Positions 42,448 through 63,240 of a stretch of 64,000 nt of DNA are shown here, piece by piece. The first letter of the stretch is position 1. Every line of letters begins with the position of its first letter. The notes beneath the pieces are model-generated. The model saw nothing but the letters and a program-made list of their open reading frames with translations, had not been told where the DNA came from and did no database searches. A program made the translations under genes and the position numbers. This DNA is from Gemmobacter sp. 24YEA27 (GTDB lineage: Bacteria; Pseudomonadota; Alphaproteobacteria; Rhodobacterales; Rhodobacteraceae). The stretch lies in contig NZ_JASJPW010000006.1 in the NCBI RefSeq assembly GCF_030052995.1, forward strand, positions 1 to 64,000. Direction: 5' to 3'.

Positions 42448-43398
42448 ATGACCACATTGCCTGATTTGCCGCGCGAAGGCCTGGTGCCGCCGCGGATCGA
42501 ATGGCCAACATGGGGCTTGCTGGCTTTGTGCTATGGGCTTTGGCTCTGGGCCGGGTTCTGGCTTTATCCGCTGTCCCCCGGGCTGGCGCTGATTGTCATC
42601 GGGGTCACTGTCGCGCTGCATTCCTCTTTGCAGCATGAGGTGCTGCATGGCCATCCGACCAGAAATGCGCGGCTCAACGAAGCGCTGGTCTGGCTGCCGA
42701 TCGGCATCTTCTACCCCTATCGCAGTTATAAGCTGACCCATCTGCAGCATCATAATGACGAGCGCCTGACCGACCCGCATGATGATCCCGAAAGCTATTA
42801 CATCGCGCTGTTCGACTGGCTCGGGATGCCGCGCATCCTTCGGGCGGCGCGGATCGCGAATAATACGCTGATCGGGCGGGTGGTGATCGGCCCCTGGTTT
42901 GCGGTGACCGGCTTTACCCTGGCCGAAATGCACCGTGTCGCGGCAGGGGATTCCAAGACCCGTAACGCCTGGGCGCATCATCTTGCAGGCCTCGTGCCGG
43001 TGCTGGCCTTCATCCAGTTCGGCATGGGGATCCCGGTCTGGCTTTATGTGCTGGTCTCGGGCTGGATCGGGCTGGGCCTTCTGGCAATCCGCACCTATTG
43101 CGAACATCAATGGGCCGAAGATCCGAATGGCCGCACGATCATCGTCGAGCGCTCCATTCTGGCGCCGCTGTTTCTTTATAACAACCTGCATTTTGTGCAT
43201 CACAAGTTGCCGCGTGTGCCCTGGTATCGGCTGCCCGCCACATATCGCGCAGCGCGCGGCGACTGGGCGCGGCTGAATGGAGGCTATGTGTTTCCCAGCT
43301 ATTTCAGCATCCTGCAGCGCTTCGCCTGGAAAGTGAAAGAGCCGGTTCCGCATCCGCGCTGGCGTCGAAACCGGGACGGGGAAGGGGACGCGCCATGA
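42448..43398 (+). CDS. membrane fatty acid desaturase family protein
   Basis: A 316-residue integral membrane di-iron oxygenase. Three His clusters are visible: HSSLQHEVLHGHP, HLQHHNDERLTDPHDDPES and, near the C-terminus, NNLHFVHHKLPRVPW, with a further HQWAEDP. Hydrophobic segments lie at about 24-60 and 185-215. It starts 8 bp after the permease and ends with an ATGA overlap into the next gene, so it belongs to the importer operon. Family members desaturate or hydroxylate lipids or other hydrophobic compounds. Whether its substrate is a membrane lipid or the imported molecule is open. Confidence 0.85.
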   Translation: MTTLPDLPREGLVPPRIEWPTWGLLALCYGLWLWAGFWLYPLSPGLALIVIGVTVALHSSLQHEVLHGHPTRNARLNEALVWLPIGIFYPYRSYKLTHLQHHNDERLTDPHDDPESYYIALFDWLGMPRILRAARIANNTLIGRVVIGPWFAVTGFTLAEMHRVAAGDSKTRNAWAHHLAGLVPVLAFIQFGMGIPVWLYVLVSGWIGLGLLAIRTYCEHQWAEDPNGRTIIVERSILAPLFLYNNLHFVHHKLPRVPWYRLPATYRAARGDWARLNGGYVFPSYFSILQRFAWKVKEPVPHPRWRRNRDGEGDAP

Positions 43399-43811
43399 GC
43401 CTTGTGGTCTCTTTCGGCATGTATGACTGGCCCGAGGCCCGGGCGGCGAGTGACGCGGCATGGGCGGACATCCGGCCCGGCTTGCTTGTCGCTGGCCTTG
43501 CGGCCCCGGCCCGGCTTGTCCGTCGCAACCGCGATTTGCCACCTGTGCCTGGCGGGATCCGGGCGCCCGGGGGGCGGTTGCTGGCCCCTGATCCGGCGCA
43601 GCTTGCCCCCGATGATCTGGATTTCACGGCGGTCTGACACCATCCGGCGCTGCTCTTGGCCGAGATCTGCCATGGGGTGCTGGATTACAAAGCTTTCCCG
43701 GGGCGCGAACGTGTGGGTCAGCTGGATTACGACGGGATCGACGGCTACAGCGGTGCCGCGTATTCCAGTGCCCTGGTAATCCTCCCCTTGGTTAATGGGA
43801 TGCGGCAGTAG
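43395..43811 (+). pseudogene. PhnD-like (phosphate/phosphonate-type) binding protein, broken and truncated
   Basis: Starts in an ATGA overlap with the desaturase. SLVVSFGMYDWPEARAASDA and WADIRPGL match the start of the PhnD-like periplasmic proteins found in Rhodobacterales. After a TGA at 43635-43637, the reading HPALLLAEICHGVLDYKAFP, QLDYDGIDGYSGAAYSSALV continues in the same frame with the family's central GxPDY...GYYxS pattern, then ends at TAG 43809 next to IS3 DNA. So one nonsense codon plus loss of the C-terminal half. Confidence 0.65.
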
Positions 43812-43820
43812 AGTTTTCTC

Positions 43821-43848
43821 GTGAGCCGTGAGCCGTGAGCCGTGAGCT
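43821..43848 (+). repeat. heptanucleotide tandem repeat
   Basis: GTGAGCC repeated three times and followed by a fourth copy GTGAGCT, directly upstream of the IS3-type orfA start. Seven-base units can slip during replication; here they lie just before a ribosome-binding site (GAGGAG). Confidence 0.9.
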
Positions 43849-43860
43849 GAGGAGATTCGA

Positions 43861-44004
43861 ATGAGAAAGAGCCGTTTCACGGAACCGCAGATCATGGCTG
43901 TACTTCGCCAGGCCGAGAGCGGTGTGGCCGTGCCTGAACTTTGCCGTGAGCATGGGATCAGCACGGCAAGCTTCTACAAGTGGCGTTCCAAGTATAGCGG
44001 CTTC
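43861..44004 (+). pseudogene. IS3-family orfA fragment
   Basis: MRKSRFTEPQIMAVLRQAES, then GVAVPELCREHGISTASFYK and WRSKYSG: the N-terminal helix-turn-helix of IS3 orfA, cut after SKYSG where the IS6-like end GGGCACTGTTGCAAA begins. No leucine zipper or orfB remains. Confidence 0.85.
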
Positions 44005-44235
44005 ATCGGGCACTGTTGCAAAAGTCAGCCAGCGCGACCGGCCTGGAGCGCGCGCCCGATCATATACTTGTCCAGCCAGATCAGCGGAGAGCCACGTCGC
44101 TTCAATGCAGCGTTTTATGACTTCCAGTTCGTCGTGCGACAGCGGGCGGGTTCAGGCCTGGTCATCCCAGCCTCCCAAACCCATGGATTCGCCGTGCGAA
44201 TCCTGCTCGTTGGGGACTCTGCAACAACGCCGGAT
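44005..44235. mobile_element. IS6-like terminal fragment
   Basis: GGGCACTGTTGCAAA at 44007-44021 is the terminal inverted repeat type of IS6/IS26-like elements. CTCTGCAACAACG near 44218 may be a decayed opposite end. Between them, the minus-strand reading LSHDELEVIKRCIEATWLSA is protein-like but not one I can name. No complete transposase. Confidence 0.5.
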
Positions 44236-44401
44236 GACCCGCGCAAGCTGCGCGGATCAGGTCTGAACAGAAGCCCCGGCAGGGTAGCGACCAGGATTAG
44301 GTCCGCCTCGCTCCTGCCCCGACGGTTTTTCCTTTTACCCGATCCGCCAGATTCCCATTACCGGGAAATACAGGGGCTGTGGTGCCGCGCCAGAGCAGCG
44401 C

Positions 44402-45568
44402 TCAATAGGCCTGACGGTAAAGGGCCAGCGCGGCCTCCTCGTCCACGGTGACCGGATTATTCTGCAGCAAACGTGTCTGCAGCATCGCGTCCCTGGCGAG
44501 CATTGGCAGGCTGTCTTCCGGCACACTGACATCGCGCAGGCGGCGCGGTGCGCCGGAGCGGTCCATCAGATCCTCCATAAAGTCGACAAAGGCGGCGGCA
44601 CGGGCCTGCACGCCCTCCCCGGACGGGCCTGTCACCACATCCGCCAGCTCGGCATAAAGCGGCGCGGCGGCGGCCATGTTGTAGCGCAGCACTGGTCCCA
44701 GCATCAGCGCATTGGTCAGGCCATGCGGCAGGTGGAAGTGACCGCCCAGCGGATAGGCCAGGGCATGGACCGCGCCCACGGGGCTGTTGGAAAAGGCCTG
44801 GCCGGCGAAATTCGCGCCGATCAGCATCCCCTCGCGCGCGGCGCGGTCATCGCCATTCTGGCAGGCATTGACCAGATGAGTGGCCAGAAGCCGCAGCGCT
44901 TCGCGCGCGAAGATGTCAGAGAGAAGGTTCTTCCTGTGTCGGCTGGTATAGGCCTCAATCGCATGGACCATCGCGTCGATGCCGGTCGCGGCGGTCTGCA
45001 CCGGCGGCAGGCCCGTGGTCAGCGCGGCATCCAGCAGCACCCGGTCGGCATAAAGCTGTTGCGAGACGATGCCCATTTTGGTCGTCTCGCCGGTGGTGAG
45101 GATGGTGATATTGGTCACTTCCGACCCGGTCCCGGCGGTGGTGGGCACCTGCACCAGCGGCAGGCGCTGGCCGGTCACTTTCCCGATACCGTAAAGCTCG
45201 GACAGGGGCTGTTCGCTGACCAGCATAACCGCCACCAGCTTTGCGATATCCATCGAAGAGCCGCCGCCCAACCCCATCACGATATCCGCGCCCGCAGCCC
45301 GTCCCTGCGCGACACAGGCCATCAGCACCGCCTCGGGCGGATCGGCGACCACATCGTCGAACACTGAAACCGTGAAGCCATGCGACAAAAGCGAGGCCTT
45401 CGCCGCATCAAGCAGCCCGCCATCATGCAGGAATTTATCCGTTACGATCAGCAGTTTGCGCGCCGGGAACCAGTCCTGCAGCAATTCACCCATTCGGGCC
45501 GCACCACCCCATTCCACCAGCGTCGAGCCGGGGGTATCAAATGAAAAGGCTTTGATCAGATCCGTCAT
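44402..45568 (-). CDS. iron-containing alcohol dehydrogenase (4-hydroxybutyrate dehydrogenase candidate)
   Basis: Group III (Fe-dependent) NAD(P) alcohol dehydrogenase of 388 residues. Dinucleotide motif MGLGGGSSMDIAK, the VPTTAGTGSEVTNITILTT block, metal ligands in TGIDAMVHAIEAYTS and HALAYPLGGHFHLPHGLTNA. All metal residues are present. It follows gabD by 59 bp on the same strand and is the last gene of the ten-gene amide operon. The neighbouring succinate-semialdehyde dehydrogenase suggests oxidation of 4-hydroxybutyrate to succinic semialdehyde. The family is broad, so other short-chain alcohols are possible. Confidence 0.85.
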   Translation of the reverse strand: MTDLIKAFSFDTPGSTLVEWGGAARMGELLQDWFPARKLLIVTDKFLHDGGLLDAAKASLLSHGFTVSVFDDVVADPPEAVLMACVAQGRAAGADIVMGLGGGSSMDIAKLVAVMLVSEQPLSELYGIGKVTGQRLPLVQVPTTAGTGSEVTNITILTTGETTKMGIVSQQLYADRVLLDAALTTGLPPVQTAATGIDAMVHAIEAYTSRHRKNLLSDIFAREALRLLATHLVNACQNGDDRAAREGMLIGANFAGQAFSNSPVGAVHALAYPLGGHFHLPHGLTNALMLGPVLRYNMAAAAPLYAELADVVTGPSGEGVQARAAAFVDFMEDLMDRSGAPRRLRDVSVPEDSLPMLARDAMLQTRLLQNNPVTVDEEAALALYRQAY

Positions 45569-45598
45569 CTTTCGTTCCTTCCCTTGAGGAAAGCAGAA

Positions 45599-45615
45599 GG
45601 GGGCATCTGGCCCCC
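45599..45615. promoter_or_regulatory. intercistronic stem-loop between gabD and the Fe-dehydrogenase
   Basis: GGGGGC and GCCCCC around ATCTG form a 6-bp GC stem in the 59-bp gap. No T-run; likely an RNA-stability or partial attenuation hairpin. Confidence 0.55.
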
Positions 45616-45627
45616 GGGGCAGTCAGC

Positions 45628-47073
45628 TCAGAACGCGCTGCAGAGATATTTCAGTTCGAGATAGTCCTCGATCCCGTATTTCGAGCCCTCGCGGCCAAGG
45701 CCGGATTGCTTGACCCCGCCAAAGGGCGCGACCTCGTTTGAGATCAGGCCGGTATTATGGCCGACCATGCCATATTCCAGCGCTTCGGAGACGCGGATGA
45801 CCCGGCCATGGTCTCGGGTGAAAAAATAAGCGGCAAGGCCGAAGATGGTGTCATTGGCCATGGCGATGGCGTCTTCTTCAGTGTCGAAGACAAAAACCGG
45901 GGCCATCGGGCCGAACGTCTCTTCGCGGGCGACCGCCATGTCCGGGGTCACGCCGGTCAGCAGCGCCGGTTGCAGATAAAGCCCGCCGAGGCGCTGGCCG
46001 CCGGTGACGAGTTCCGCGCCCTTTTCCACCGCGTCGCGGATATGGCTTTCGACCTTATCGATGGCTTTTGCCTCGATCATCGGGCCGACATCGGTGTCTG
46101 GCAGCATCCCGTCGCCCACCTTCAGGCCCGCAATCCGTTCGGACAGCCGCGCGACAAAGGCATCATGGATGCCGCGCTGCACGAGAAGACGGTTCGCACA
46201 AACGCAGGTCTGACCGGCATTGCGGAACTTGGACACCATCGCCCCTTCCACCGCCGCGTCCAGATCGGCGTCATCGAACACGATGAAAGGCGCATTGCCG
46301 CCCAGCTCCAGGCTCAGTTTCTTAATTGTGGGCGCGCATTGCGCCATCAAAAGCCGCCCCACCTCGGTCGAGCCGGTGAAGGAAAGTTTGCGCACGACAT
46401 CGCTGTCGGTCAGCACTTTGCCGATTTTCGAGGCCGAGCCGGTGACGATCTGAAACACACCCGCAGGCACCCCGGCGCGCTGTGCCAGCTCACCAAGCGC
46501 CAGCGCCGAAAGCGGTGTCAGATCGGCAGGGCGCAGGATCATCGCGCAGCCCGCCGCCAGGGCGGGAGCCGCCTTGCGGGTGATCATTGCCGCCGGGAAG
46601 TTCCAGGGCGTGATGGCCGCCGTCACACCGATGGGCTGGCGCAGCACGGTGATGCGCTGATTTGCCTTCGGCGCCGGGATCGTATCACCATAGACGCGCT
46701 TCGCCTCTTCAGCGAACCATTCGACAAAACTGGCGGCATAGGCGATCTCGCCTTTGGCTTCGGACAGCGGTTTACCCTGTTCGGCGGTCATGATGCGGCC
46801 CAGATCGTCCTGGTGCTGCATCATCAGCTCGAACCAGCGGCGCAGGATCCTGCTGCGCTCGGCCGCCGGGCGGGCCGCCCAGAGCTTCTGCGCGGCTTCG
46901 GCGGCGGCGATCACCGCGGGGATTTCGGCCGGGTCCATCTGCGGCACGTGACCGACCTCGCTGCCATCGGCAGGGTTGGTCACCACAGTCATCGCGGCAG
47001 AGGCCGCACCGACCCATTCCCCATTGATCAGACAGGCGGATTTCAACAGGCTGGGGTCTTGCAGAACTGGCAT
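45628..47073 (-). CDS. gabD: NAD(P)-dependent succinate-semialdehyde dehydrogenase
   Basis: Aldehyde dehydrogenase of 481 residues, close to Gab[12 protein letters not shown] start, [20 protein letters not shown] for the cofactor fold, catalytic Glu in [20 protein letters not shown], catalytic Cys in [17 protein letters not shown] (the CVCxNR double Cys is typical of SSADH), and [20 protein letters not shown] near the end. Start at ATG 47073, preceded by AAGGACGC. Oxidises succinic semialdehyde to succinate. In this operon it would complete conversion of a four-carbon amide or hydroxy acid into the TCA cycle. Confidence 0.92.
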
Positions 47074-47103
47074 TTTGCGTCCTTCGGGCAAACAGGGCGG
47101 CAG

Positions 47104-47127
47104 CAACGGGCAGCCATTAGCCCGTTG
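47104..47127. promoter_or_regulatory. 8-bp perfect stem-loop between the amiR-like gene and gabD
   Basis: CAACGGGC and GCCCGTTG flank an 8-nt loop. On the transcribed (minus) strand the loop is TAATGGCT. Its inner six bases AATGGC have A at 1 and G at 4, as in ANTAR-bound hexaloops, but would need a U-U closing mismatch. Plausible RNA hairpin; binding is speculative. Confidence 0.5.
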
Positions 47128-47164
47128 CGAAAGTGGTCAGGATCGGGTGGTAAGCCGGCTGAGG

Positions 47165-47800
47165 TCAGTCCGGCGGATCGTGCGGCGGGCCCTGGCCATG
47201 TGTCTCTGCGGTGATCCCGGCAATGACACGCTCTGCCGCAGCTTCGATAGAGATGCGGCCATCCATCGCGGCCTTTTGCAGATAGCGGTGGGTCTGGGCC
47301 ATTTCGATATTGCGGACCCTGCAAAGCAGGGTCTTGGCGATATCGACAACGGAAAGCGCGGCCTGGCGCTGTTCGGCGGCAGCGATCCGTTCCAGGTTCT
47401 TCCGGCGGCGTTTCCAGATGTCACGGCTGATCATCAGATTGGTCAGAAGGCCAAAGGGTTTTACCGGGCGCTCGATCACCGCAGCCGCCCGCAATTCCAG
47501 CACCAGTTGCAGCGTCGAGGGATCCTCATAGCCGACAAGCACAATGATCGGCGGGCTCAGATCGGTCAGGCTGGTGATCAGAACCCGGACATCGGCGCGC
47601 GCATCGGAATCGACAGTGACGATTGCCACGTCAATATCGTCGGACAGCCGCGCAGGGATCGGCCAGTCAAGACGCGGCAGGCAGCCAATGCGGATCAGGT
47701 GGGTCATCAGCGCCTCGGCCTCGCGTCCGGGCGGCAGCAGCACCAGAACCCTGGTGCCTTTCAGATCGCTGATCTTTGGCTGGCCGCTGGGCTTAGGCAT
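47165..47800 (-). CDS. AmiR-like ANTAR-domain antiterminator
   Basis: A 211-residue protein. Degenerate receiver-like N-domain (GTRVLVLLPPGREAEALMTH, IVLVGYEDP), then a coiled-coil region (RRRKNLERIAAAEQRQAALS) and the C-terminal ANTAR RNA-binding helices (VVDIAKTLLCRVRNIEMAQT, HRYLQKAAMDGRISIEAAAE). The layout is that of AmiR of Pseudomonas, which binds leader RNA to stop termination and is held inactive by AmiC. Overlaps the amiC-like gene by 8 bp, again as in amiCR. Likely controls this amide operon by antitermination. Confidence 0.85.
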   Translation of the reverse strand: MPKPSGQPKISDLKGTRVLVLLPPGREAEALMTHLIRIGCLPRLDWPIPARLSDDIDVAIVTVDSDARADVRVLITSLTDLSPPIIVLVGYEDPSTLQLVLELRAAAVIERPVKPFGLLTNLMISRDIWKRRRKNLERIAAAEQRQAALSVVDIAKTLLCRVRNIEMAQTHRYLQKAAMDGRISIEAAAERVIAGITAETHGQGPPHDPPD

Positions 47801-48944
47801 GGCTGATCAGATCACCCCCGAAGCTGTGCTCGACCATATAGGGTTCGGGCTTTACCGGGGCCGTGGCATCTTCGATCACCTCAAAGGCATTCTGGTCATT
47901 AACTCTGCCAATCCGCGGCCAGAGCCAGCAGTGATGGGTCGCAGCATCGATCCGCACCTCGCCTTCGGGTGCAGAAAAACGCACATCTGCCAGCCGGGCC
48001 AGCACCGCATCCAGCGCAGGCAGCTCCGCCTGCCGCGCCGCCTGTGCGAAGAGGTGAACCTGGAAATACGCGGCTTCTGCCCCGGAGGTCAGCGCAATAT
48101 CCCCGCCAAAACGGGCCTGCATCCCGGCGCGGAAGACCTGGCTTTCCGGGTTTTGCAAAGTGGAAAACCAGGGCGCCGCAGCAAGGAAGCCTTCGGACAG
48201 CTCTGCGTCCATCTGTGCAAGATCCGCTTCGTTGGTCGCGAGGCTGGCGATCACTGCCCCCCCTGCCCGGCTGCGGGTTCCGGCAAAAGCCCGGTGCAGC
48301 CGGATCGTGTCGCTGCCGACCACGGTCGAGTAGATCACATCGGGGCGCAGGGCCTCAATCTTTGCGATCACATCCGACAGGTCGTCATCCGGAGCGCCAA
48401 AGGGCAGGTAAACCTCGCCCACCACCTGGCCCTCGGCCTGCTCAAAGAGATCGCGCATGATGCGGTTGGATTCATGGGCAAAGACGTAGTTATTGCCAAT
48501 GAAGAACACCCGCCTGCCATGATGGCGCAGCAGATGCCGCGCCAGCGGGACCGAGTTCTGGTTAGGTGCGGCACCGGTATAGATGCAATTCCGCGAGAAT
48601 TCGAACCCTTCATAAAGCGTCGGGTAGAACAGCAGCGCCTCGCGGCTTTCAACGACAGGCAGCACGGCCTTGCGTGAATGGGACATATGGGTGCCGAACA
48701 GCACCCGCACGCCATGGTCATCGGCCAGCTTTTCCGCCGCGAGACAATAATCATCCGGATGCGGCCCGACCGGCAGCCGGCAGGGCTCCAGCGGCAGGCC
48801 GTTGATGCCGCCCGCCGCATTCACCTCGTCAATCGCCAGCAAGGTCGCACAGGCCTGGCTGTGTTCGACCGCCGAAGTCTGGCTCGTCTCTGAGAAGAGC
48901 AGTCCGACGGGCCAGCTTTCCCGCCGCGTATTGAGAAGTTGCAT
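47793..48944 (-). CDS. AmiC-like amide-sensing binding protein
   Basis: Type I periplasmic-binding fold protein of 383 residues with no signal peptide, so cytoplasmic like AmiC. WPVGLLFSETSQTSAVEHSQ, GPHPDDYCLAAEKLADDHGV, YEGFEFSRNCIYTGAAPNQN and YNYVFAHESNR-type segments (seen as FFIGNNYVFAHESNRIMRD) are AmiC/UrtA hallmarks. It starts in an ATGA overlap with the amidase stop and runs into the amiR-like gene. Expected role: bind the amide inducer and release the AmiR-like antiterminator. Lack of a signal separates it from the transporter's own binding protein. Confidence 0.85.
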   Translation of the reverse strand: MQLLNTRRESWPVGLLFSETSQTSAVEHSQACATLLAIDEVNAAGGINGLPLEPCRLPVGPHPDDYCLAAEKLADDHGVRVLFGTHMSHSRKAVLPVVESREALLFYPTLYEGFEFSRNCIYTGAAPNQNSVPLARHLLRHHGRRVFFIGNNYVFAHESNRIMRDLFEQAEGQVVGEVYLPFGAPDDDLSDVIAKIEALRPDVIYSTVVGSDTIRLHRAFAGTRSRAGGAVIASLATNEADLAQMDAELSEGFLAAAPWFSTLQNPESQVFRAGMQARFGGDIALTSGAEAAYFQVHLFAQAARQAELPALDAVLARLADVRFSAPEGEVRIDAATHHCWLWPRIGRVNDQNAFEVIEDATAPVKPEPYMVEHSFGGDLISHA

Positions 48945-50458
48945 CACAGCGTCTTCCAGTCGAAGGCCGCTTCCCAGGCCGCCGCCGCGCGGTAAAGCAG
49001 CGCCTCGGCGTGATCGCGCCCGACCAGCATCATTCCGACCGGCAGGCCTTCGGCCCGACCGCAGGGCAGACTGATCGCGGGCAGGCCGGTGGCATTGAAC
49101 GGGGCGGTATTTGCGTTCATCTCCAGCGCGCGTCCGACCCATTCCGCCGGACCGCATCCCGGTTCGGGCAGTTTCGGGGCCTTGAGGGGAACGGTCGGCA
49201 TCAAAAGCATGTCGTAATCCGCAAGCACCGCCAGATAGGCCGCCTTGAGACGGCGGACCAGGTTCTGTGCCTTGCCATAGGTCTGCCCCCGATACTGACC
49301 CCGGAAGTAATGCGCCGCAAGCAGAACCGATTTCACATCATCGGGAAAATCCGCCGCATGATCGCGCCAGTCGCTTTGCGCCCGCATCAGGCTGGTGACG
49401 TAAAGCCCCTTCCAGTTGGAGCCGTAATTCAGCCCTTCCATCTGGGCGACCGTGCCTTCGGTGGCAATCGGTGTCCAGATCGCATGGCCCTTGCGGTGCA
49501 GCGGGATTGAGACTTCGTCGACGGTGGCGCCCAGCTTGGCAAGGCGTTCTGCCCCCGCCCTGACCGTCCTGTCGATATCGGGTTCGGAATTCGGCCAGCC
49601 AAAGCCCTCGGGGATAACTGCGACACGCAGGCCTTTGGCCCCCGCCGCAAGCCCTTCGCTGTAATCCGTGGCGGCAGGCAGTGCCTGCTGGCGCGGATCA
49701 AGCCCGTCCGCCCCGGCAATCGCGGTCAGAACCCGCGCATTGGTCGCGACATTGCCCGACATTACCCCGGCATGGTCCAGCGTCATCTCGACCGGCATCA
49801 CCCCTGTATAGGGCACCAGCCCATGCGTCGGTTTCATGCCGACAAAACCGGCATAGGCCGCCGGGATCCGCACGGATCCGCCCTGATCGGTGCCGATAGC
49901 GGCATCGACCAGGCCCGCAGCCACCAGCGCCGAACAGCCCGAGGAAGACCCGCCCGCCGAGCGCGTCTCGTCATGGGGGTTGCGCACCGGGCCCTGCGCG
50001 CCGGTATGGCTGCTGCCCGAGACGCAGAAATATTCACATTGCGCCTTGCCCTCGATCACCGCGCCGGCATCCAGCAGCCGGGTGACAAGCGTCGCGTCCA
50101 CATCCGGCACATAGCCGCGCAGGGTCGAGGCGCCATTCATCATCGGCACGCCCGCCAGCATGACATTGTCTTTCAGCGCCATGCGCAGCCCCGAAAGCGG
50201 GCCGCCCTGCCGCCCCTCGACCCGGGTTTTCACATACCAGGCGTTATAGGGGTTCTCTTCCGGCGTGGGGTAATGGCCGGGGGTTCGCGGATAACGCAGT
50301 TCGGGCAGTTCCGGGGTCAGCGCATCGACGATCGCGTAATCTTCGGCCACGGCCTCCATCAGGGTGGTGAAGGTGGTCAGCTCGTCTTCGCTCAGCCCGA
50401 GGCCCAGATCCTGATCTGCGGCCAGCATATCGTCGAAATTGGGTTTGCGGATGGTCAC
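48944..50458 (-). CDS. amidase (amidase signature family)
   Basis: A 504-residue amidase with the Ser-cisSer-Lys triad in place: Lys in LRMALKDNVMLAGVPMMNG, cis-Ser in SAGGSSSGCSALVAAGLVDA, and the nucleophile in AIGTDQGGSVRIPAAYAGF. It hydrolyses an amide to acid plus ammonia. It lies between the LivF-type ATPase (3-bp gap) and the amiC-like gene (overlap). Unlike the Pseudomonas amiE system, whose amidase is of the nitrilase type, here a GatA-like amidase is joined to AmiC/AmiR, so the substrate may be larger than acetamide. Cytoplasmic. Confidence 0.92.
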   Translation of the reverse strand: MTIRKPNFDDMLAADQDLGLGLSEDELTTFTTLMEAVAEDYAIVDALTPELPELRYPRTPGHYPTPEENPYNAWYVKTRVEGRQGGPLSGLRMALKDNVMLAGVPMMNGASTLRGYVPDVDATLVTRLLDAGAVIEGKAQCEYFCVSGSSHTGAQGPVRNPHDETRSAGGSSSGCSALVAAGLVDAAIGTDQGGSVRIPAAYAGFVGMKPTHGLVPYTGVMPVEMTLDHAGVMSGNVATNARVLTAIAGADGLDPRQQALPAATDYSEGLAAGAKGLRVAVIPEGFGWPNSEPDIDRTVRAGAERLAKLGATVDEVSIPLHRKGHAIWTPIATEGTVAQMEGLNYGSNWKGLYVTSLMRAQSDWRDHAADFPDDVKSVLLAAHYFRGQYRGQTYGKAQNLVRRLKAAYLAVLADYDMLLMPTVPLKAPKLPEPGCGPAEWVGRALEMNANTAPFNATGLPAISLPCGRAEGLPVGMMLVGRDHAEALLYRAAAAWEAAFDWKTL

Positions 50459-50461
50459 GTC

Positions 50462-51166
50462 TCAGCCCTCGATCCCGATAAATGCCCTGGCTTCCTCTTC
50501 CGATCCGGCGGCTTTCGGGTCGATGGTCTTCGACACGCTGCCCTTGTCGACCGCCAGAACGCGGTCACAGATCGACCAGAGGAAATCGATGTCCTGTTCG
50601 ACCAGAATGATCGACAGGTCCTTTTCTTTGCGCAGACGGATCAGCACATCGATGATCTCGTCGCAGATATTGGGCTGGATGCCCTCGGTCGGCTCATCCA
50701 GCAGGATCAGATCCGGCTCGCCGCAAAGGCAGCGGCCAAGCGCCAGAAGCTGCTGCTCGCCGCCCGAAAGCATGCCCGCAGGGCGTTCCAGCAGCGGCAC
50801 GAGGCGCGGCAGCAGGTCAAGCACTTCGGCGATCCTCTCGCGGGCGGCGCGGAATTTCTTCACACAGCCCATGCGCAGGTTTTCCTCAACGCTGAGCAGC
50901 TTGAAAAGTTGTTTTCCCTGCGGCACATAGCCGATCCCGGCGCGGGCACGCGTCTGCACCGGCTTGCCCGTGAGCCTATGCCCCCCCTTGCGGATCTCGC
51001 CCGCCCAGTTCGGCAATTCGCCCATAATGGCACGCAAAAGCGTGGTTTTGCCCATGCCGTTGCGACCCAGAAGCCCGATACATTCACCACGGGCGAGCGT
51101 CAGATCGACCCCCCGCAGCACCGGCACACGGCCATAGCCCGATTTCAGACCGCTTACCTCAAGCAT
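50462..51166 (-). CDS. amide/branched-chain-type ABC transporter ATPase (UrtE/LivF)
   Basis: A 234-residue ATPase: GRNGMGKTTLLRAIMG, GYVPQGKQLFKLLSVEENLR, LSGGEQQLLALGRCL and LILLDEPTEGIQPNICDEII. The last is the UrtE/FmdF-type form of the LivF signature (EGIQP). Start at ATG 51166 because AAGGAG is too close to the earlier ATG at 51172. Overlaps the LivG-type gene by 8 bp. One of two ATPases of the importer. Confidence 0.9.
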   Translation of the reverse strand: MLEVSGLKSGYGRVPVLRGVDLTLARGECIGLLGRNGMGKTTLLRAIMGELPNWAGEIRKGGHRLTGKPVQTRARAGIGYVPQGKQLFKLLSVEENLRMGCVKKFRAARERIAEVLDLLPRLVPLLERPAGMLSGGEQQLLALGRCLCGEPDLILLDEPTEGIQPNICDEIIDVLIRLRKEKDLSIILVEQDIDFLWSICDRVLAVDKGSVSKTIDPKAAGSEEEARAFIGIEG

Positions 51167-51890
51167 CTGCATTCTCCTTGCGGCCAAGATAGGCGGCCCG
51201 CACCTGCGGATCCTTTGAGATCTCAGTGAAACTGCCCTCGGCGATCACTGCGCCGCGCTCGAATACGGTGACGCGCTCGCCGATCAGGCGGATGAAATCC
51301 ATGTCATGTTCGACCACGATCACTGCGCTGTGCTGTGTGATGTCGCGGATGATTTCGACGGTTTTCAGGCTCTCGCTATGGGTCATGCCCGCCGCCGGTT
51401 CATCAAGCAGCGCGACGGCGGGTTTCATCGCCAGCATCTGGCCCAGTTCGACCCATTGGCGCTGACCATGCGCCAGTTCAGCACAGGCGCGATGGCGCAG
51501 ATCGCCAAGGCCGATATGGTCCAGTACATCGGTCACAACCCCGGCAACCGCCTTGCCCCGCACCCGCCGACGCGCCGCCATGTCGATGTTTTCCTGAACG
51601 CTCAGCCCCTCGAAAAGGCTGGGCACCTGGGTTTTGATGCCGATCCCGAGCCGGGCGATCTGCCAGGGTTTCAGCCCCGCCAGCGGCTTCTCCCTGAACG
51701 TCACCGCGCCGCGTGTCGGCGCATACTGGCCCGAGAGCAGCCGGAAGAAGGTGGTCTTGCCCGCACCATTCGGCCCGATCAGGCAGCGCAGCTCGCCCTG
51801 GCGCAGCTCGAAATCCACCGCCTTGACCGCGTCGACACCGCCAAAGCTGATGCCAAGGCCCCGGGCCTGAAGAATGATCTCGCCGCTCAT
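51159..51890 (-). CDS. amide/branched-chain-type ABC transporter ATPase (UrtD/LivG)
   Basis: A 243-residue ATPase: GPNGAGKTTFFRLLSGQYAP, GIKTQVPSLFEGLSVQENID, LAHGQRQWVELGQMLAMKPA (signature with the UrtD-type AHGQ variant) and VALLDEPAAGMTHSES. This combination is that of UrtD-like subunits of urea/short-chain amide importers rather than amino-acid LivG. Start ATG at 51890, 4-bp overlap with the LivM-type permease. Confidence 0.9.
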   Translation of the reverse strand: MSGEIILQARGLGISFGGVDAVKAVDFELRQGELRCLIGPNGAGKTTFFRLLSGQYAPTRGAVTFREKPLAGLKPWQIARLGIGIKTQVPSLFEGLSVQENIDMAARRRVRGKAVAGVVTDVLDHIGLGDLRHRACAELAHGQRQWVELGQMLAMKPAVALLDEPAAGMTHSESLKTVEIIRDITQHSAVIVVEHDMDFIRLIGERVTVFERGAVIAEGSFTEISKDPQVRAAYLGRKENADA

Positions 51891-52876
51891 GCGCTCTGCT
51901 CCGTTTCGGCTTTGGGCTTGCGGCGGAACAGGCCCGTGATCAGCGGCACGATCCCCTGCGGCACCAGGAGGACGAAGAAGGTCAGCACAAGGCCCAGCAC
52001 CAGATTGACCTGCACAACCTGCTGGGTGCCCAGTTTCGTCGTGGCCCATTGCAGCGCGATACAACCCAGGATCGGCCCGATCAGCGTGCCGCGCCCGCCC
52101 ACGATCACCCAGATGATGATCTGCGCCGATTGCACGAGGCTGAAGATGGTCGGGCTGACAAAAGCGCCCCAATTGGCGAAGAGACAGCCGCCAAGCCCCG
52201 CCAGCGCCCCGCCGAGGGTAAAGGTGATCAGCTTCGATTGCGCCACATTATAGCCCAGCAGCTCGGCCCGGACCTCGTTCTCGCGCACGGCGATCGCGGT
52301 CTTGCCGGGCGTTGTCTTCAGGTAGAGCGCGATGGCGACGATCGCCGCGACGATCACGATGACCGTCAGGCGGAAGATCTCGGCCGGATCCAGCGGTATC
52401 CCACCCGGCCAGGCCAGCGTCGGTATGCCGGTCATGCCGTTGAAGCCTCCGAGCAGCGCCGATCCGATGCGGTATTGCGGCCCCGAGGTAGAGTTGATCA
52501 GGTTGAAGAGGATCAGCGTCACCGCCAGTGTGATGACCCCGATGTAGATGTCATTGATGCGGCCATAGAACATGAAATAGCCAAGCACCGCCGCGAAAGC
52601 TGCGGGCACTGCCACGGCAATGGCCAGCGCAGCTATGCCTGGGCCGAAATTAATCGCCCCCACTGCCCAGGCATAGGCGCCCAGGCCGAAAAAGGCGGCC
52701 TGGCCGAGGCACATGATCCCGCCTTTGCCCCAGACAAAGGCAAGGCTCAGTGCCAGCACCGCCATGATGAGATAGGCGGTGAATTCATAGATGGTGAAGA
52801 GCTCCAGCCAGCCCGGGGCCAGTAGTCCCAGCACCAGAGCTGCGAAAAGCAACGTGGGTTGCAGGATGCGGGTCAT
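51887..52876 (-). CDS. amide/branched-chain-type ABC transporter permease (UrtC/LivM)
   Basis: A 329-residue permease with about nine membrane segments. LALSLAFVWGKGGIMCLGQA, AFFGLGAYAWAVGAINFGPG and the motif WVIVGGRGTLIGPILGCIAL are typical of LivM/UrtC. The QAxFFGLGAY element is the family's channel signature. It overlaps both neighbours by 1 to 4 bp. Pairs with the LivH-type permease. Confidence 0.9.
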   Translation of the reverse strand: MTRILQPTLLFAALVLGLLAPGWLELFTIYEFTAYLIMAVLALSLAFVWGKGGIMCLGQAAFFGLGAYAWAVGAINFGPGIAALAIAVAVPAAFAAVLGYFMFYGRINDIYIGVITLAVTLILFNLINSTSGPQYRIGSALLGGFNGMTGIPTLAWPGGIPLDPAEIFRLTVIVIVAAIVAIALYLKTTPGKTAIAVRENEVRAELLGYNVAQSKLITFTLGGALAGLGGCLFANWGAFVSPTIFSLVQSAQIIIWVIVGGRGTLIGPILGCIALQWATTKLGTQQVVQVNLVLGLVLTFFVLLVPQGIVPLITGLFRRKPKAETEQSA

Positions 52877-53744
52877 CAGATCGACCTCCTGAAGAAGCGG
52901 CCGGTGATGCCCTGCGGCAGGATGCGGATCAGCACGATGGCAGTAAGCAAAAGCGCGACCTCACCGATCACCGGGGTGAAGACATAGGTGAAGATCTGCC
53001 CCACCGACCCAAAGAGGACCGAGGCCGAGAGGTTGCCGGCGATCACCGCCGCCCCGCCCGAAATCACCGTGATGAACGACTTTGCGATGTAAGAGGCACC
53101 GATGGTCGGTATCACCCCGGTCAGCGGCGCAAGGGCGGCCCCGCCAAGTCCCGCAAGCGCGGCCCCCAGGCCGAAGGTCAGCGCATAGATCCGGCGCGGC
53201 TTGCCGCCAAGGGCTGCAACCATTTCGGCATTTTGCGTAGTAGCCCGCGCCTGCAGGCCAAAGGTTGTCAGTTTGAACAGGCAAAACAGCCCGGCGAACA
53301 CCGCCAGCGCCAGCGCGATCAGAAAGATCACATAGCCGCTGACGGAGTAGTCGCCGATGCTGACGCTTGGAAGCGGCGTCGGAATCCCCGTGGTCGTATT
53401 GCCCACCAGCATGGTCATGCCACCGATCAGTGCAAGGCTGATCCCCCAGGTTGCCAGCATGGTATCAATCATCCGCCCGTAAAGGTGACGGATGACCAGC
53501 CATTCCAGCGCCAGGCCGACCATTCCCACCACAAGGGGGCCAGGATCAGCGCGCTGATCCAGAAGTTCAGACCGGCATAGTTGGTGCCATAGATTGCCAC
53601 ATAGCCGCCGAGCATAAGAAACTCGCCATGGGCCATGTTGATGACCTTCATCATCCCGAAAACCACCGCCAGACCGATGCTGATCAGCACCAGAATGGCA
53701 ATGGACCCCAGGATTTCGATCACGAGGACGGACGCGAAATCCAT
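52876..53744 (-). pseudogene. amide/branched-chain-type ABC transporter permease (UrtB/LivH), one frameshift
   Basis: First permease of the importer. The N-terminal piece MDFASVLVIEILGSIAILVL, VVFGMMKVINMAHGEFLMLG and the remainder MVGMVGLALEWLVIRHLYGR, LVGNTTTGIPTPLPSVSIGD, TFGLQARATTQNAEMVAALG are continuous LivH/UrtB sequence in two frames. The join is at the G run 53535-53539 (five C on the coding strand). Six C would give LILAPLVVGMVGLALEW. All other operon members are intact, so a sequencing deletion is likely. Without it the importer lacks a channel half. Confidence 0.88.
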
Positions 53745-53753
53745 GCTTTTTCC

Positions 53754-54980
53754 TTAGAAATCGATGACGTATTGCTGGTTGTCATCCGGGTTTGCGATCA
53801 GGTCGCAGACCAGGGCGGTGTCAGCCGGAGGCTGCTGCTCAAACGTCTCGACCGGAATCAGGCCGCCGTTTTCGACCCGCGCGATATGCACATCCATCGT
53901 GGTGTGATGGGTTTTCGGATCGATGGTGACGCGCCCGCTGGGGGCATCCAGCGAAATGCCAGTCTCCAGCGCCTCGATCACCGAAAGCCGGTCGGTGGTT
54001 CCCGCCTTTTCAACGCCCGCCGCCCAGAGACGGAAGCCCTGATAGGCGCCCATGCCCAGCTCGGTGATATAGGGGTAATCCGCGCCGAATTTCGCGTGGA
54101 AATCAGCGACGAACTGCTGGTTCAGCGGATTGTCCAGCTCCTGCAGATAGTTCTGGCAGACCATGATACCATCGGATTCCGCAGGCGTCAGGATCACATG
54201 CTCATTGCCGCCCGCGAAGGTGGTCGAGGACATCGGGATCTTGCCCAGCATCCCCGCCGCCTTCCACTGGCGATAGAAGGAGATATGCGCGCCGCCGACC
54301 AGTGCCGACCAGACATAATCGGGTTTTGCCGCCTGGATCTTCGAGATCGAGGTCTTGAAATCGGTCACATCCATCGGGAAGAACTCGACGCCCAGCACCT
54401 CGCCACCGTGATCGGCGGTGTATTTCTTGACCCAATCGGCGATGATCTGGCCATAGTTGTAATCGGCGGCGACGATGTAGACCTTGCCGCCATTGTTCTT
54501 GACCGAATAGTCGACCAGCTTTTCAACGGTCTGACCCGGGGTCACGCCGGTTGCGAACATGTTGCGGTCGCAGACGCCGCCCTCATACTGGTTGGCGTAA
54601 AAGTAAAGCGTGTTGAACTGCCGCATGATCGGGCGGACCACTTCGCGCGAGGCCGAGGTGATACCGGCAAAGACCACCGCCGGTTTATCAGACAGCGCTG
54701 CCTGACGGGCGAACTGCGCGTAAAGCTGCATATTCGACTGCGGATCATAGATGCTGAGTTTCACCTCACGCCCCAGCAGCCCGCCCTTTGCATTTTGCTC
54801 ATCTACGGCAAAGCGCAGCGCGTCAACGATGGGCTGGCCGTAGGATTCGAGCCCCCCCGACTGGTCGTAAAGGGCGGATACCGTGATCGGCCCCTCCTGC
54901 GCAAAGGCATGGGCCGAGGTGAGGCTGAGGGCAGTTGCAGCGCCAAAGGCGCCCAACGCCTGACGGCGGTTCATGGACAT
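53754..54980 (-). CDS. amide/urea-type ABC transporter substrate-binding protein (UrtA/FmdD-like)
   Basis: A 408-residue periplasmic protein with a signal (NRRQALGAFGAATALSLTSA, ending AFA). Its body GPITVSALYDQSGGLESYGQ, KGGLLGREVKLSIYDPQSNM, YFYANQYEGGVCDRNMFATG, YNYGQIIADWVKKYTADHGG and GAYQGFRLWAAGVEKAGTTD follows the UrtA/FmdD line of short-chain amide/urea binding proteins. Start at 54980 with GGAGCTTCC in front. First gene of the ten-gene operon. Binds the substrate later cut by the amidase. Confidence 0.9.
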   Translation of the reverse strand: MSMNRRQALGAFGAATALSLTSAHAFAQEGPITVSALYDQSGGLESYGQPIVDALRFAVDEQNAKGGLLGREVKLSIYDPQSNMQLYAQFARQAALSDKPAVVFAGITSASREVVRPIMRQFNTLYFYANQYEGGVCDRNMFATGVTPGQTVEKLVDYSVKNNGGKVYIVAADYNYGQIIADWVKKYTADHGGEVLGVEFFPMDVTDFKTSISKIQAAKPDYVWSALVGGAHISFYRQWKAAGMLGKIPMSSTTFAGGNEHVILTPAESDGIMVCQNYLQELDNPLNQQFVADFHAKFGADYPYITELGMGAYQGFRLWAAGVEKAGTTDRLSVIEALETGISLDAPSGRVTIDPKTHHTTMDVHIARVENGGLIPVETFEQQPPADTALVCDLIANPDDNQQYVIDF

Positions 54981-55094
54981 GGAAGCTCCGGTGTTGGGGG
55001 AAGGGCCGGCAACAGGCCAGGTGCTGCGCAAGCAACAGACAGCAACGCAAATGGTGCCAGACGTCCTGATCAGTGTGGTAGTTTTGATTTTGAA

Positions 55095-55129
55095 GCCAGA
55101 TCTGCGGACCCGTTTGTCCTGATCCTGGC
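55095..55129 (-). promoter_or_regulatory. leader hairpin of the amide operon
   Basis: GCCAGATC (55095-55102) pairs with GATCCTGGC (55121-55129) with one bulge. Inside, GGAC/GTCC closes a six-base loop (AAACGG on the transcribed strand). It lies 115-150 bp upstream of the binding-protein start, in the expected leader. Such hairpins are what ANTAR proteins bind, but the usual loop position 4 G is absent (G is at 5), so this is only a candidate. Confidence 0.45.
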
Positions 55130-55389
55130 TCGATACTGAACGGTGCAACGCAGTTGTCGCAGCAGAATCAGGATTCCGCCTCGCTCGCCGCGCATGCTAG
55201 TTATCTTGCTGTCCGCTGTAAAGATACCGACAGAAAATTTCCTCCGCCAGGGTATTGCCGTGCCGATAGCTGCGCCATCGGGCCAGTTGCAGTGCGAAGG
55301 TTTGGGCAAACTCGGCTGGGGTCTGCCCATATGTATCTGCCGGCTCTTGTTCACAATCGATAGTTCAGCACGACTTCGGAAGCCACTCA

Positions 55390-55545
55390 CATGTACCCTG
55401 CTCGATCAGGAAGCAGAGGATCTGGTTGATCGGCGCTGTGCGGCGCGAGACGAGCCGCGCGCGAGCCCGGTGCAGCACCTGCTGGTCGAACTGATCCCGG
55501 GTCTTCTCTGAAACCCCGCGCGGATTGGGGCGTAGCGCTGCTTCG
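55390..55545 (-). pseudogene. IS110-type transposase fragment
   Basis: GVSEKTRDQFDQQVLHRARA followed by RLVSRRTAPINQILCFLIEQ is the mid-protein segment of IS110/IS1111 transposases (LHRxRxRLVxxRTAxINQIRxFLxExG). Only about 50 codons remain, on the minus strand. Confidence 0.7.
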
Positions 55546-55570
55546 GCATTGGTCTCGGCATCTGAACTTC

Positions 55571-56170
55571 TGCCGGTTTCGTGGACACGAATATAGGATG
55601 ATCGTGACCAGGGAACTGGAGAATGGATATGACGAGACGGAAGTTCAGCGGTGAGTTTAAGATCGAGGCCGTCAGGCTGGTGACGGATCGTGGTGTGGCG
55701 GTTGCTAAGGCCGCGCGTGACCTTGATATTGCCCGAAGTATTCTTCGGCGGTGGATGCCGGAACTGACCGCGACACCGGCCACGGCGCTTCTCGGGAACG
55801 GGCCGATCGGGCCGGGTTTTCAGCCTTGAAGAAAGAGGTCGCACATCCTCGCACGGAGCGTGACATGCCTCGAAGAAAGCGGCAGCTTTTTTCGCGTGAG
55901 AGACGATATGAGGTTCGCCTTCATTGCCAGGCATCGTCATATCCGGCCAGTCAGCTGGCTCTGCGAGGGGCTGGAGGTCTCGCGGTCCGGTTTCCATGCC
56001 TGGCTGACCCGCCCGACCAGCCCTCGCGAGTGCTATGACGCCAAACTCGTCACGGCGATCGAGGCGAGCTTCAAGGCCAGAGACCAGCCCTGTGGCGCGC
56101 GTCGCATCTGGCGCGATGTTATGGAAATGGGGTTGGTCGGCGGCCTTCACCGGATCAAACACCTTGGGCT
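55571..56170 (+). mobile_element. IS3-family element, left half, degenerate
   Basis: Left end TGCCGGTTTCGTGGACACGA, then orfA from 55623 (MTRRKFSGEFKIEAVRLVTD, ARDLDIARSILRRWMPELTA), disrupted near 55810 with the remainder KKEVAHPRTERDMPRRKRQL in another frame. orfB then begins (MRFAFIARHRHIRPVSWLCE, LEVSRSGFHAWLTRPTSPRE, ARRIWRDVMEMGLVGGLHRI) and is lost near 56165. The downstream catalytic DDE region and right end are missing. The same left end, shorter, is at 23692-23790. Confidence 0.85.
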
Positions 56171-56812
56171 GCGGGTTCTTTGCTGTGGAGGGAATTCCAC
56201 TCAAGTGATGAGGACGATTGCCGCGCCCCGTGCCCGTGGTTTCTTGTGCCGTGACCGGGATCGCTGAGGCCGCTTTCGGGGAGGGTTGCGGTGGGTCTAA
56301 GCGGGCGGGCAGCTTTTGTCACCGGGGCCCGGGTCGTCACCAGACCGGCGCGCGACTGTTACAACGCCGTTCGGTGACAGCGCGGACTGAGGCAGCTGTT
56401 CACCTTGCGCGATGGTCGCGGGCGCGGCCCGACTCGCTGTGAACCGCCCATCTTTCCTGACCAGCATGGCCTGCTGGTTTCTTTGAGCTTCGTAACTCCC
56501 GGCGCCCCGGATACCCGGCTGAGCCACCGAACGGGCACGGTATTGGCGCGGACCGGGGCGGAGGGTATCATCCGTCGCTGTGGCTTTAGGTCCTTTTGCG
56601 AGGCGCAGTGTCATGGCGCTGCCTTTCTGATTATGTGCTGGTGCCGGGACCGTCACGACGATGCGCGCCGCGCGGCCGATATTGGCTGCAAGGTGACGAT
56701 GCATCTCTGTGGCATTACGACGGCGGTGCTGGCCGAAGTGACAGAGGGCGGCCGGAACATGCGCCAATGCGGGCGGCAGAAGCGGTCATGGCCGCGAACG
56801 GGAGAGGACAGA
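56171..56812. other. long region without a recognised gene
   Basis: About 640 bp between the IS3 fragment and the epimerase. It is very GC-rich and several frames are open without start signals or family features. The epimerase frame is open back to 56405 but has no conserved content before 56813. Confidence 0.45.
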
Positions 56813-57687: not shown

Positions 57688-58614
57688 CTATCTGGCACCG
57701 CGCTCAAAGCTTTCGCCAAGGGCTGCGGGCAGGCTCGCCTTGCGGCCGGCGACCAGCAGCACCAGCATGACCATGGCGAAGGGCAGCATCTGGATCACAT
57801 CGACCGGCACATTGACGCCCGCGACCTGAAGCGCGGTTGTCATCGAAAGGCTTGCGCCAAACAAGAGCGCGCCGCCCAGCACCCAGAGCGGGCGTCCCCG
57901 CGCCAGCATCGCAAGCACGATGGCGATGAAGCCATTGCCATGGCTCATGAAGGGAATGAAGACGCCCGCCACTGCAACTGACATGAAGGCCCCGCCAAGG
58001 CCGGCCAGTGCTCCGGTGGTCAGCACCGCCAGCGCGCGGGTGCGGATCACATCGACGCCAGCCGCATCCAGCGCCGCAGGTTTGTCGCCCGCCGCCTGCA
58101 AAGCCGATCCGAGATGGGTCATGCGGTAGATCCAGGCGAAAACCGCGACCAGGATGACCGCAAGATAGACCACCGGATTATGGCTGAAGAACATCGGCCC
58201 GAGGACCGGGATATCGGCGAGGCCGGGGATGCGCCAGCTCTGCATCCCGTCAAGCCTGGGATAGGATCGCGAGAATTGCACGAAATGCAACAAAGCGGTG
58301 AGCCCCTGCACCAGCAAGGTCAGCGCGATGCCAATCACGATCTGGTTCAGCCCCAGGATGACGCAAAACACCACCATCAGGCTTGCCACCAGCGCCCCCG
58401 CCCCCGCGCCGCCGGCAAAACCAAGGGCGGAACTTCCGCTGGCCCAGGCGGTGAGGAACCCGGCATAGGCCCCGGCGAGGATCATGCCCTCAAGGCCGAT
58501 ATTCAGCACCCCCGCTTTTTCCGAAAGCTGCTCACCGAGGCCCGCAAGCAATAGCGGGATCCCCGCCATGACGGCGCCAAGGAAAAGCGTGATGAGGAAG
58601 GTTTCCGTGAACAT
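57688..58614 (-). CDS. nucleoside-type ABC transporter permease (BMP system, second permease)
   Basis: A 308-residue permease: LGEQLSEKAGVLNIGLEGMI, LGLNQIVIGIALTLLVQGLT and GGAFMSVAVAGVFIPFMSHG are characteristic of the NupQ/YufQ subunit of BMP-family importers (the motif KAGVLNIGLEG is specific). I place the start at ATG 58614, beyond which the open frame covers the preceding gene. Eight bp after the other permease. Forms half of the channel. Confidence 0.9.
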   Translation of the reverse strand: MFTETFLITLFLGAVMAGIPLLLAGLGEQLSEKAGVLNIGLEGMILAGAYAGFLTAWASGSSALGFAGGAGAGALVASLMVVFCVILGLNQIVIGIALTLLVQGLTALLHFVQFSRSYPRLDGMQSWRIPGLADIPVLGPMFFSHNPVVYLAVILVAVFAWIYRMTHLGSALQAAGDKPAALDAAGVDVIRTRALAVLTTGALAGLGGAFMSVAVAGVFIPFMSHGNGFIAIVLAMLARGRPLWVLGGALLFGASLSMTTALQVAGVNVPVDVIQMLPFAMVMLVLLVAGRKASLPAALGESFERGAR

Positions 58615-58621
58615 CAGGTCC

Positions 58622-61257: not shown

Positions 61258-61356
61258 GGAGTGATCCTTCATGAAAAACCCGCAGCCCCGATCTGGCCTC
61301 GCGGGGCATGTCGCTGGTGGACAGGGCCTGACCGGCCCCGTCCCTGCAGTCGCAGC

Positions 61357-62391: not shown

Positions 62392-62478
62392 CTCATCATT
62401 CCTTGTTGTCGTTTTACAGTTGACAGTCAGCCGCCGCCCGGATGCCATCCGGTCAGTTGAAACCCGAACACACGGCTT

Positions 62479-62919: not shown

Positions 62920-63240
62920 CCGCGCGCACCCGCATCTCTCGCCGCAAAGCTGTTCATCAGACCCCTTCCGCTTGAGGGACATCGTGGCAGGCATCGTTCA
63001 GGGGAACCCATCGGCCGGCTGCCTCAATCGAGGGAATTCTCCCCACGGCAGCACAAGAAACCAGGTCCCCGATTGACAGCACAAGAATACGATAACATTA
63101 TCATACCGTAATACAATGTGAAAAAATCCTACACCTGCAGGCCTGGCTGAAATTTCCGTCACGAGACTGAAATTTCATCATATTCCCGGAGCGGGTGCCG
63201 CAAATTTATCCGGTCACGCCGGAGGAAACGGGAGAATGCC
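62920..63240. promoter_or_regulatory. regulatory region upstream of the SDR gene
   Basis: A 320-bp AT-rich stretch. It contains the dyad GATAA-CA-TTATC (63091-63102), overlapping the 11-mer ATTATCATACC (63097-63107) that recurs inverted ahead of araF. Two copies of CTGAAATTTC (63147-63156 and 63167-63176) are exactly 20 bp apart. These are candidate operators. GGGAGAATGCC supports the ATG at 63241. Confidence 0.5.

Follow-up and report, generated by a model that had tools for sequence, protein, structure and literature searches.

The blcABC (attKLM) system of Agrobacterium converts gamma-butyrolactone to 4-hydroxybutyrate and succinate semialdehyde, according to the portions of PMC5924552 and PMC4231840 that deal with it, and is discussed in the former for quorum quenching. 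Amide operons are described in the relevant part of a 2026 report (PMC13209695), namely amiE-amiC-amiR with an ABC transporter on a plasmid of Klebsiella KOS9, and amiE-fmdAB-urtABCDE in P. veronii. The locus analysed here has likenesses to both kinds of system and lies on contig C6 of Gemmobacter sp. 24YEA27, within C6:1-64000 (the window, 64,000 nucleotides of a 5.08 Mb genome in 12 contigs). Ten genes occupy its minus strand at 44402-54980 in the order urtA-urtB-urtC-urtD-urtE-amidase-amiC-amiR, followed by succinate-semialdehyde dehydrogenase (SSADH) and iron alcohol dehydrogenase (Fe-ADH, also ADH below). On balance, and with a slight lean in its favour, this cassette reads as a joined pathway for a 4-hydroxybutyramide-type substrate, in which an amide front end and a blcAB-type back end would travel together in an exchangeable catabolic unit.

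The cassette shares with Agrobacterium blcABC an adjacent SSADH followed by Fe-ADH, each at 68% identity, but lacks a BlcC lactonase (none among the ten genes) and an IclR-type BlcR, has its own regulators AmiC and AmiR, and possesses an amidase and an importer in addition. With the ami system of P. aeruginosa (amiEBCRS) it has in common an AmiC-like sensor and an AmiR-like ANTAR protein, whereas its amidase-signature enzyme, its UrtABCDE-type importer and its dehydrogenase tail set it apart; P. aeruginosa AmiE is presumed to have the nitrilase fold. The amidase is of the same signature type as PDB entry 3a1k (434 bits), which we take to be the nitrile-hydratase-linked amidase of Rhodococcus N-771, but no nitrile hydratase is present among the ten operon genes; a search of the whole Gemmobacter genome for this enzyme gave no match, and control genomes gave none either. 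The KOS9 and P. veronii operons, as presented in the part of PMC13209695 that covers them, likewise place an importer beside an amidase, with AmiC and AmiR in KOS9, whereas the amidase type differs. The terms 'semialdehyde' and 'hydroxybutyrate' are absent from the main text of that paper, and on the portion describing them its plasmid amide operons are the nearest published neighbour found. In P. putida KT2440, compared with the cassette by description and not by sequence, 4-hydroxybutyrate oxidation is part of a beta-oxidation-type operon, and direct extract assays failed, according to the corresponding part of PMC7090098.

The first-pass annotation knew of no described system with this combination of genes. 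This fits a limited search of open-licence literature, which yielded no description of the joined operon, and the combination is apparently new, although each half has already been described separately. The name '4-hydroxybutyramide' led, among the matches listed, exclusively to DNA-array chemistry, and a paper on the purification of an Alcaligenes nitrile hydratase and amidase (PMC4145624) is said to contain both 'hydroxybutyramide' and 'amidase'. The exchange of a lactonase for an amidase is of specialist interest and directly testable.

Gene order and blc kinship

From urtA to ADH, successive intergenic distances are 9, -1, -4, -8, 3, -1, -8, 91 and 59 bp, the widest being amiR-SSADH and SSADH-ADH, and the initial description of ten genes on one strand with gaps mostly below 100 bp is confirmed (-8 to +91 bp). 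The ten proteins were compared with 90 loci and with regions fetched later. The complete ten-gene order is repeated in genome G306 (L154), in Pseudogemmobacter hezensis (L038) and on plasmid p1 of Paracoccus methylovorus (L149), and because it recurs in three further genomes the grouping is more than chance. Alloyangia pacifica (L150) carries a five-gene form, amidase-amiC-amiR-SSADH-ADH, without urt genes, and P. shanxieyensis (L039) a nine-gene form without SSADH. Amidase, amiC and amiR occur together in 12 distinct clusters, comprising that of the window, the five just named (L038 equalling L155), and those of Rhodobacteraceae GH2-2 (L040), Thioclava FTW29 (L153; two sister strains were left out of the count), Pseudomonas morbosilactucae (L042), P. 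chlororaphis (L043), Hoeflea poritis (L074) and Marinomonas transparens (L041, in rearranged order). Fe-ADH lies within eight of the 12, the exceptions being L040, L153, L042 and L043. Amidase matches that are nearly full-length and at least 49% identical are present in 30 of 294 other genomes of the family.

Within the genus, an ADH of the window type is present in four of 13 genomes, three of which have the ten-gene operon. The fourth, G301 (L156, 5177-15184), has amiC-amiR-urtABCDE-Fe-ADH, with the ADH at 70% identity and a divergent amidase of another subfamily; its UrtB passes the urea UrtB cut-off (339.1 against 250.3), unlike the urtB piece of the window. A plasmid of Agrobacterium, pAt2 (L177, 6436-17674), carries amiC-amiR-urtABCDE beside ethanolamine ammonia-lyase genes and a nitrilase-type hydrolase.

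Over 10.58 kb the cassette is 93.75% identical to that of G306 (9919 of 10580 positions). Identity is 0.87-0.92 in the edge bins within 44.25-55.25 kb and 0.34-0.49 outside, and the operon or an eight-gene part of it resides on plasmids in Paracoccus, Alloyangia and Thioclava relatives, from which we infer that the cassette probably moves as a unit among Rhodobacterales. Guanine-cytosine content differs little between the cassette (0.629) and the remainder of the window (0.624), and flanking repeats are short and poorly matching. Contig C6 (189,546 bp) gave no repC-family match, repC matches being found on C3, C4 and C7.

SSADH passes the cut-off of TIGR01780 (708.1 bits against 646.35) and matches the PDB sequence of E. 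coli SSADH (3jz4) with 694.2 bits. Fe-ADH scores 141.4 bits with its family profile (cut-off 31.3) and 168.4 with ADH_Fe_C (cut-off 27), and inspection places motifs at residues 196 and 267 that we take to supply the metal ligands. A plasmid search with the ADH returned pAtC58 of A. fabrum at 68% among the matches listed (best 30 of 110), where the annotated order in strain C58 is blcR, SSADH, iron alcohol dehydrogenase, attM. Identity to these adjacent A. fabrum blc-locus genes is 67.9% for SSADH and 68.1% for ADH. On a tree of 40 ADH rows, 37 of them different (the ADHs of same-genus G298 and P. hezensis L038 are identical, which places P. hezensis in the genus of the window), the window and A. 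fabrum enzymes fall in one supported 17-row clade (97/93), the BlcB clade, and the ADHs of Hoeflea and Marinomonas pair together outside it (96/93). The blc-type ADHs of GH2-2 (78%) and Thioclava GXIMD4215 (81%), both with a BlcC-like lactonase alongside, are nearer to that of A. fabrum; on these comparisons the window ADH is a close relative of BlcB, not the nearest. With AttL taken to be 4-hydroxybutyrate dehydrogenase and AttK to be SSADH, the pair reads as a 'blcAB' type back end, in which the amide front end would replace the BlcC lactonase. The proposal that it leads from 4-hydroxybutyrate through succinate semialdehyde to succinate gains support because both enzymes are closely related to the blc pair.

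The pair is also combined with other genes: with a lactonase in A. fabrum, GH2-2 and Thioclava GXIMD4215, with an AMP-binding ligase on a Sulfitobacter plasmid (L179, 1824-6167), with an FAD oxidoreductase and an alpha/beta hydrolase on a Haematobacter plasmid (L180, 3499-9308), and with nothing but an IclR regulator in Thioclava FTW29. The ligase of L179 and the oxidoreductase and hydrolase of L180 are possible further front ends to 4-hydroxybutyrate. In G088 (L106), a ligase and ADH occur without SSADH. A second adjacent pair, with SSADH at 52% and Fe-ADH at 36%, is found elsewhere in the Gemmobacter genome (C5:94448-97060, L107) among a TRAP transporter, Ldh_2, and dehydrogenases of the isocitrate and 3-hydroxyisobutyrate types; a GntR regulator lies close by.

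Amide genes and their possible functional link to the dehydrogenase pair

The amidase passes the curated cut-off of PRK07235 (692.8 bits against 545) and belongs to the amidase-signature family PF01425, not to the nitrilase-fold type of AmiE. On inspection it possesses a Lys motif starting at residue 94 and two Ser motifs at 169 and 191, whose residues are presumably catalytic. The AmiC-like protein matches P. aeruginosa AmiC (1pea) with 326.5 bits and the AmiR-like protein matches AmiR (1qo0) with 74.2 bits, the latter also exceeding the cut-offs of AmiR_N (98.6 bits, cut-off 27) and ANTAR (28.6, cut-off 27.3). Amide uptake, an amidase and AmiC/AmiR-type regulation, as first annotated, are supported.

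Two alphaproteobacteria whose amide cluster lacks the pair both carry a blc-type pair elsewhere: GH2-2 has a whole blcRABC at another site in the genome, and Thioclava FTW29 has IclR-SSADH-ADH on another plasmid. An ADH at E <= 1e-120 was found in one of 148 other genomes of the family and in 20 of 398 of the phylum (own genome included). The whole-genome co-occurrence of two in two against one in 148 gives p = 0.0003 by Fisher test, a post hoc value from tiny numbers and differently chosen genomes. Fe-ADH also recurs with differently built amide clusters, including those of Marinomonas and Hoeflea, whose ADHs belong to another clade.

Under the preferred reading, urtABCDE would import a small amide, AmiC/AmiR antitermination would sense it, and the amidase would hydrolyse it to ammonia and a carboxylate. 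Fe-ADH would then oxidise 4-hydroxybutyrate to succinate semialdehyde, which SSADH would oxidise to succinate. All ten genes would be transcribed together. The most likely substrate would be 4-hydroxybutyramide or an N-substituted derivative, with the amidase in the place of the Agrobacterium BlcC lactonase, given that a blcAB-type pair forms the back end. If so, the cassette would provide a pathway, a regulator and a transporter for a four-carbon hydroxyamide, and its amide sensor would be usable as a biosensor. A wider extension is tentative, namely that 4-hydroxybutyramide (or an N-substituted form) occurs in nature as a nutrient, for which Rhodobacterales have a dedicated mobile catabolic cassette under amide sensing, and that blcAB serves as a general back end for lactonase, amidase, hydrolase and CoA-ligase front ends. 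The 4-hydroxybutyrate back end would then be a reusable module, and the substrates of many pairs annotated as 'SSADH + iron ADH' would be predictable from the front-end gene.

Competing readings of the substrate

Several results weigh against this reading. The conservation expected at first pass holds for the gene order, given the three other genomes, and is weaker for the pair, as SSADH adjoins the amide genes in only five of 12 clusters (window, L154, L038, L149 and L150) and Fe-ADH in the eight noted above. Neighbours were read for 16 distinct ADH loci with 70% identity or more (further plasmid matches at that level lie outside this count); SSADH is directly upstream in nine (window, L154, L038, L149, L150, L152, L157, L179 and L180) and absent next door in seven (L039, L151, L106, L158, L130, L181 and L156). 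Relatives of the ADH number 7998 at E <= 1e-60 (8000 scored), the best 120 of the 7998 being 73-99% identical, and this type of ADH is therefore common and not tied to amide genes. The window ADH falls under every NCBIfam equivalog cut-off, as does the A. fabrum protein. The two Pseudomonas genomes (L042 and L043) lack a BlcB-like ADH, their best match being 42%. In all 12 AmiC rows the motifs GTHMS (GPHMS in one row) and FYPTLYEG are shared, with or without a BlcB-clade ADH, and the equivalents in P. aeruginosa AmiC differ (GCYMS and CYPTPYEG). Substrate discrimination by sensor and enzyme columns was tried and gave little signal: between the six clusters whose ADH belongs to the BlcB clade (including L039, which lacks SSADH) and the six others (including Hoeflea and Marinomonas, with other Fe-ADHs), separating columns number four in AmiC, none in UrtA (L150 lacks urt genes, and its UrtA row must come from a distant match) and two in the amidase. 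With motifs unchanged and so few separating columns, the amide may be something other than a C4 hydroxyamide, and the front end may also serve simple amides. In favour of the joined pathway, the AmiC stretch FIGNNYVF of the window is VGGPYVY in both Pseudomonas, which lack the pair; this change would fit a different ligand there. Also on the opposing side, urtB is frameshifted in the present assembly, a strict hairpin search found no canonical ANTAR dual-loop leader in the window, and a terminator-like hairpin precedes the ADH.

It is accordingly conceivable, although rather unlikely, that the front end scavenges nitrogen from short amides such as acetamide and propionamide, and that the blcAB-type pair is an independent module for 4-hydroxybutyrate or butyrolactone that landed downstream. 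Besides the constant AmiC motifs and the Pseudomonas clusters without the pair, this is favoured by a widespread unit of importer and amidase: all 29 loci have urtD, urtE and amidase side by side (in L033 urtD and urtE match at only 30-39%), and each of the 17 larger regions fetched contains urtABCDE and amidase but no match to AmiR or Fe-ADH. Within these 17 regions, L122 has a 40% SSADH-like match at its edge, and weak AmiC-type matches (23-30%) lie away from the amidase in eight. The largest gaps of the operon also precede SSADH and ADH and contain hairpins, which may tune or split the transcript. The recurrence of Fe-ADH with amidase-amiC-amiR across several differently built clusters, and the presence of the pair elsewhere in GH2-2 and Thioclava, argue against such a chance arrival. 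A neighbouring hydroxyamide, for example 3-hydroxypropionamide or 5-hydroxyvaleramide, whose hydroxy acid and semialdehyde would be the substrates of the two dehydrogenases, is improbable. Both families accept related omega-hydroxy acids and semialdehydes and the ADH misses every equivalog cut-off, but both dehydrogenases resemble the four-carbon blc pair and SSADH passes its subfamily cut-off. Least probable of all is an amide such as 4-aminobutyramide that yields gamma-aminobutyric acid or succinate semialdehyde directly, leaving the ADH to run only a reversible 4-hydroxybutyrate shunt. In Hoeflea poritis a divergent LuxR-type gene, a class-III aminotransferase and an SSADH follow just beyond the amide cluster, as such a route would have it, but no aminotransferase is present in the window operon or in the ten-gene sets of the relatives with the same order.

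The joined 4-hydroxybutyramide-type pathway is thus the reading retained here. The first-pass proposal of a complete, regulated pathway for a C4 hydroxyamide or lactam-derived compound is partly supported, namely in its back end and regulators; 4-hydroxybutyramide itself and a lactam origin are not established, and 'complete' is weaker than claimed because urtB is frameshifted here.

Importer, leader and flanking DNA

The importer is of the five-component branched-chain type, like the urea transporter UrtABCDE, but its subunits score below the urea equivalogs (UrtA 355.4 against a cut-off of 494.8, UrtC 251.8 against 575.55, UrtD 245.1 against 304.1, UrtE 244 against 285.8, and UrtB, scored on its 3' piece alone, 183.9 against 374.25). 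Urea transport was therefore rejected, and 'Urt-like' is right while 'urea transporter' is unsupported. The frame of urtB changes near 53538 at a one-base gap relative to G306, the sole alignment gap within a coding region, the other two (at 45615 and 54995) being intergenic; either an assembly error or a recent mutation may account for the frameshift. In Paracoccus methylovorus H4-D09 urtB is annotated at full length.

The ANTAR leader motif consists of two hexaloop hairpins whose loops carry A in first and G in fourth position (A1 and G4), as set out in the part of PMC3369931 that defines it. The strict A1/G4 pair was found in three of 11 leaders, those of the two Pseudomonas and P. methylovorus. 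The Pseudomonas leaders, near-identical and therefore one observation, have stems of 9 and 6 bp (5 and 1 of 300 shuffles produced any pair, and in no case did the two stems total 14), and that of P. methylovorus has stems of 6 and 5 bp (a pair in 1 of 300 shuffles). In L042 and L043 the canonical-looking double hexaloop lies approximately 236 and 185 bases before urtA. The predicted hexaloops of the window, L154 and L155 begin with A and lack the canonical G at position 4; in the predicted fold of L039 the first hexaloop hairpin is followed by a four-base loop in the second, and L149 has neither. An Rfam scan of 43800-56300 gave two matches only, both below the gathering score. The predicted folds of the window leader are compatible with control by AmiR and are no proof of it.

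Two promoter-like sites were found in the region against 2.4 expected, and 16 terminator-like sites against 8.5 expected. The sequence TTTACAG of the promoter-like site before urtA is kept in five of seven distinct Rhodobacterales urtA leaders aligned (window, L154, L155, L039 and L149, not L040 and L153).

Table 1. Features of the cassette and its flanks in the window
Feature	Position	Strand	Basis
Truncated transposase start (HTH_Tnp_1, 51.5 bits), left flank	43861..44003	+	profile match
Fe-ADH, 68% to A. fabrum blc-locus Fe-ADH	44402..45568	-	profile, identity, tree
Hairpin resembling a terminator in the SSADH-ADH gap, 6 G-C pairs, weak T tail	45599..45615	-	computed
SSADH, 68% to A. fabrum blc-locus SSADH	45628..47073	-	profile, pairwise identity
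AmiR-like ANTAR antiterminator	47165..47800	-	profile and PDB sequence match
AmiC-like amide sensor	47793..48944	-	profile and PDB sequence match
Amidase-signature amidase, PRK07235 subfamily	48944..50458	-	profile match, motifs
urtE-like ATPase	50462..51166	-	profile match
urtD-like ATPase	51159..51890	-	profile match
urtC-like permease	51887..52876	-	profile match
urtB-like permease, two reading-frame pieces, frameshift near 53538	52876..53744	-	profile match, alignment to G306
urtA-like substrate-binding protein (Peripla_BP_6)	53754..54980	-	profile match
Candidate leader RNA, two predicted six-base-loop hairpins (55144-55161, 55106-55119)	55106..55161	-	predicted fold
Promoter-like site TTTACA-17-TAGCAT, about 213 bp before urtA	55194..55222	-	consensus match only
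Degenerate IS3-like transposase start, right flank	55623..55829	+	by eye

Upstream of the cassette, the minus strand carries another ABC importer at 57688-62994, comprising a Bmp-type substrate-binding protein, an ATPase and two permeases. On the opposite side, a gene of the fatty-acid-desaturase family (42448-43398) sits just past the left transposase remnant.

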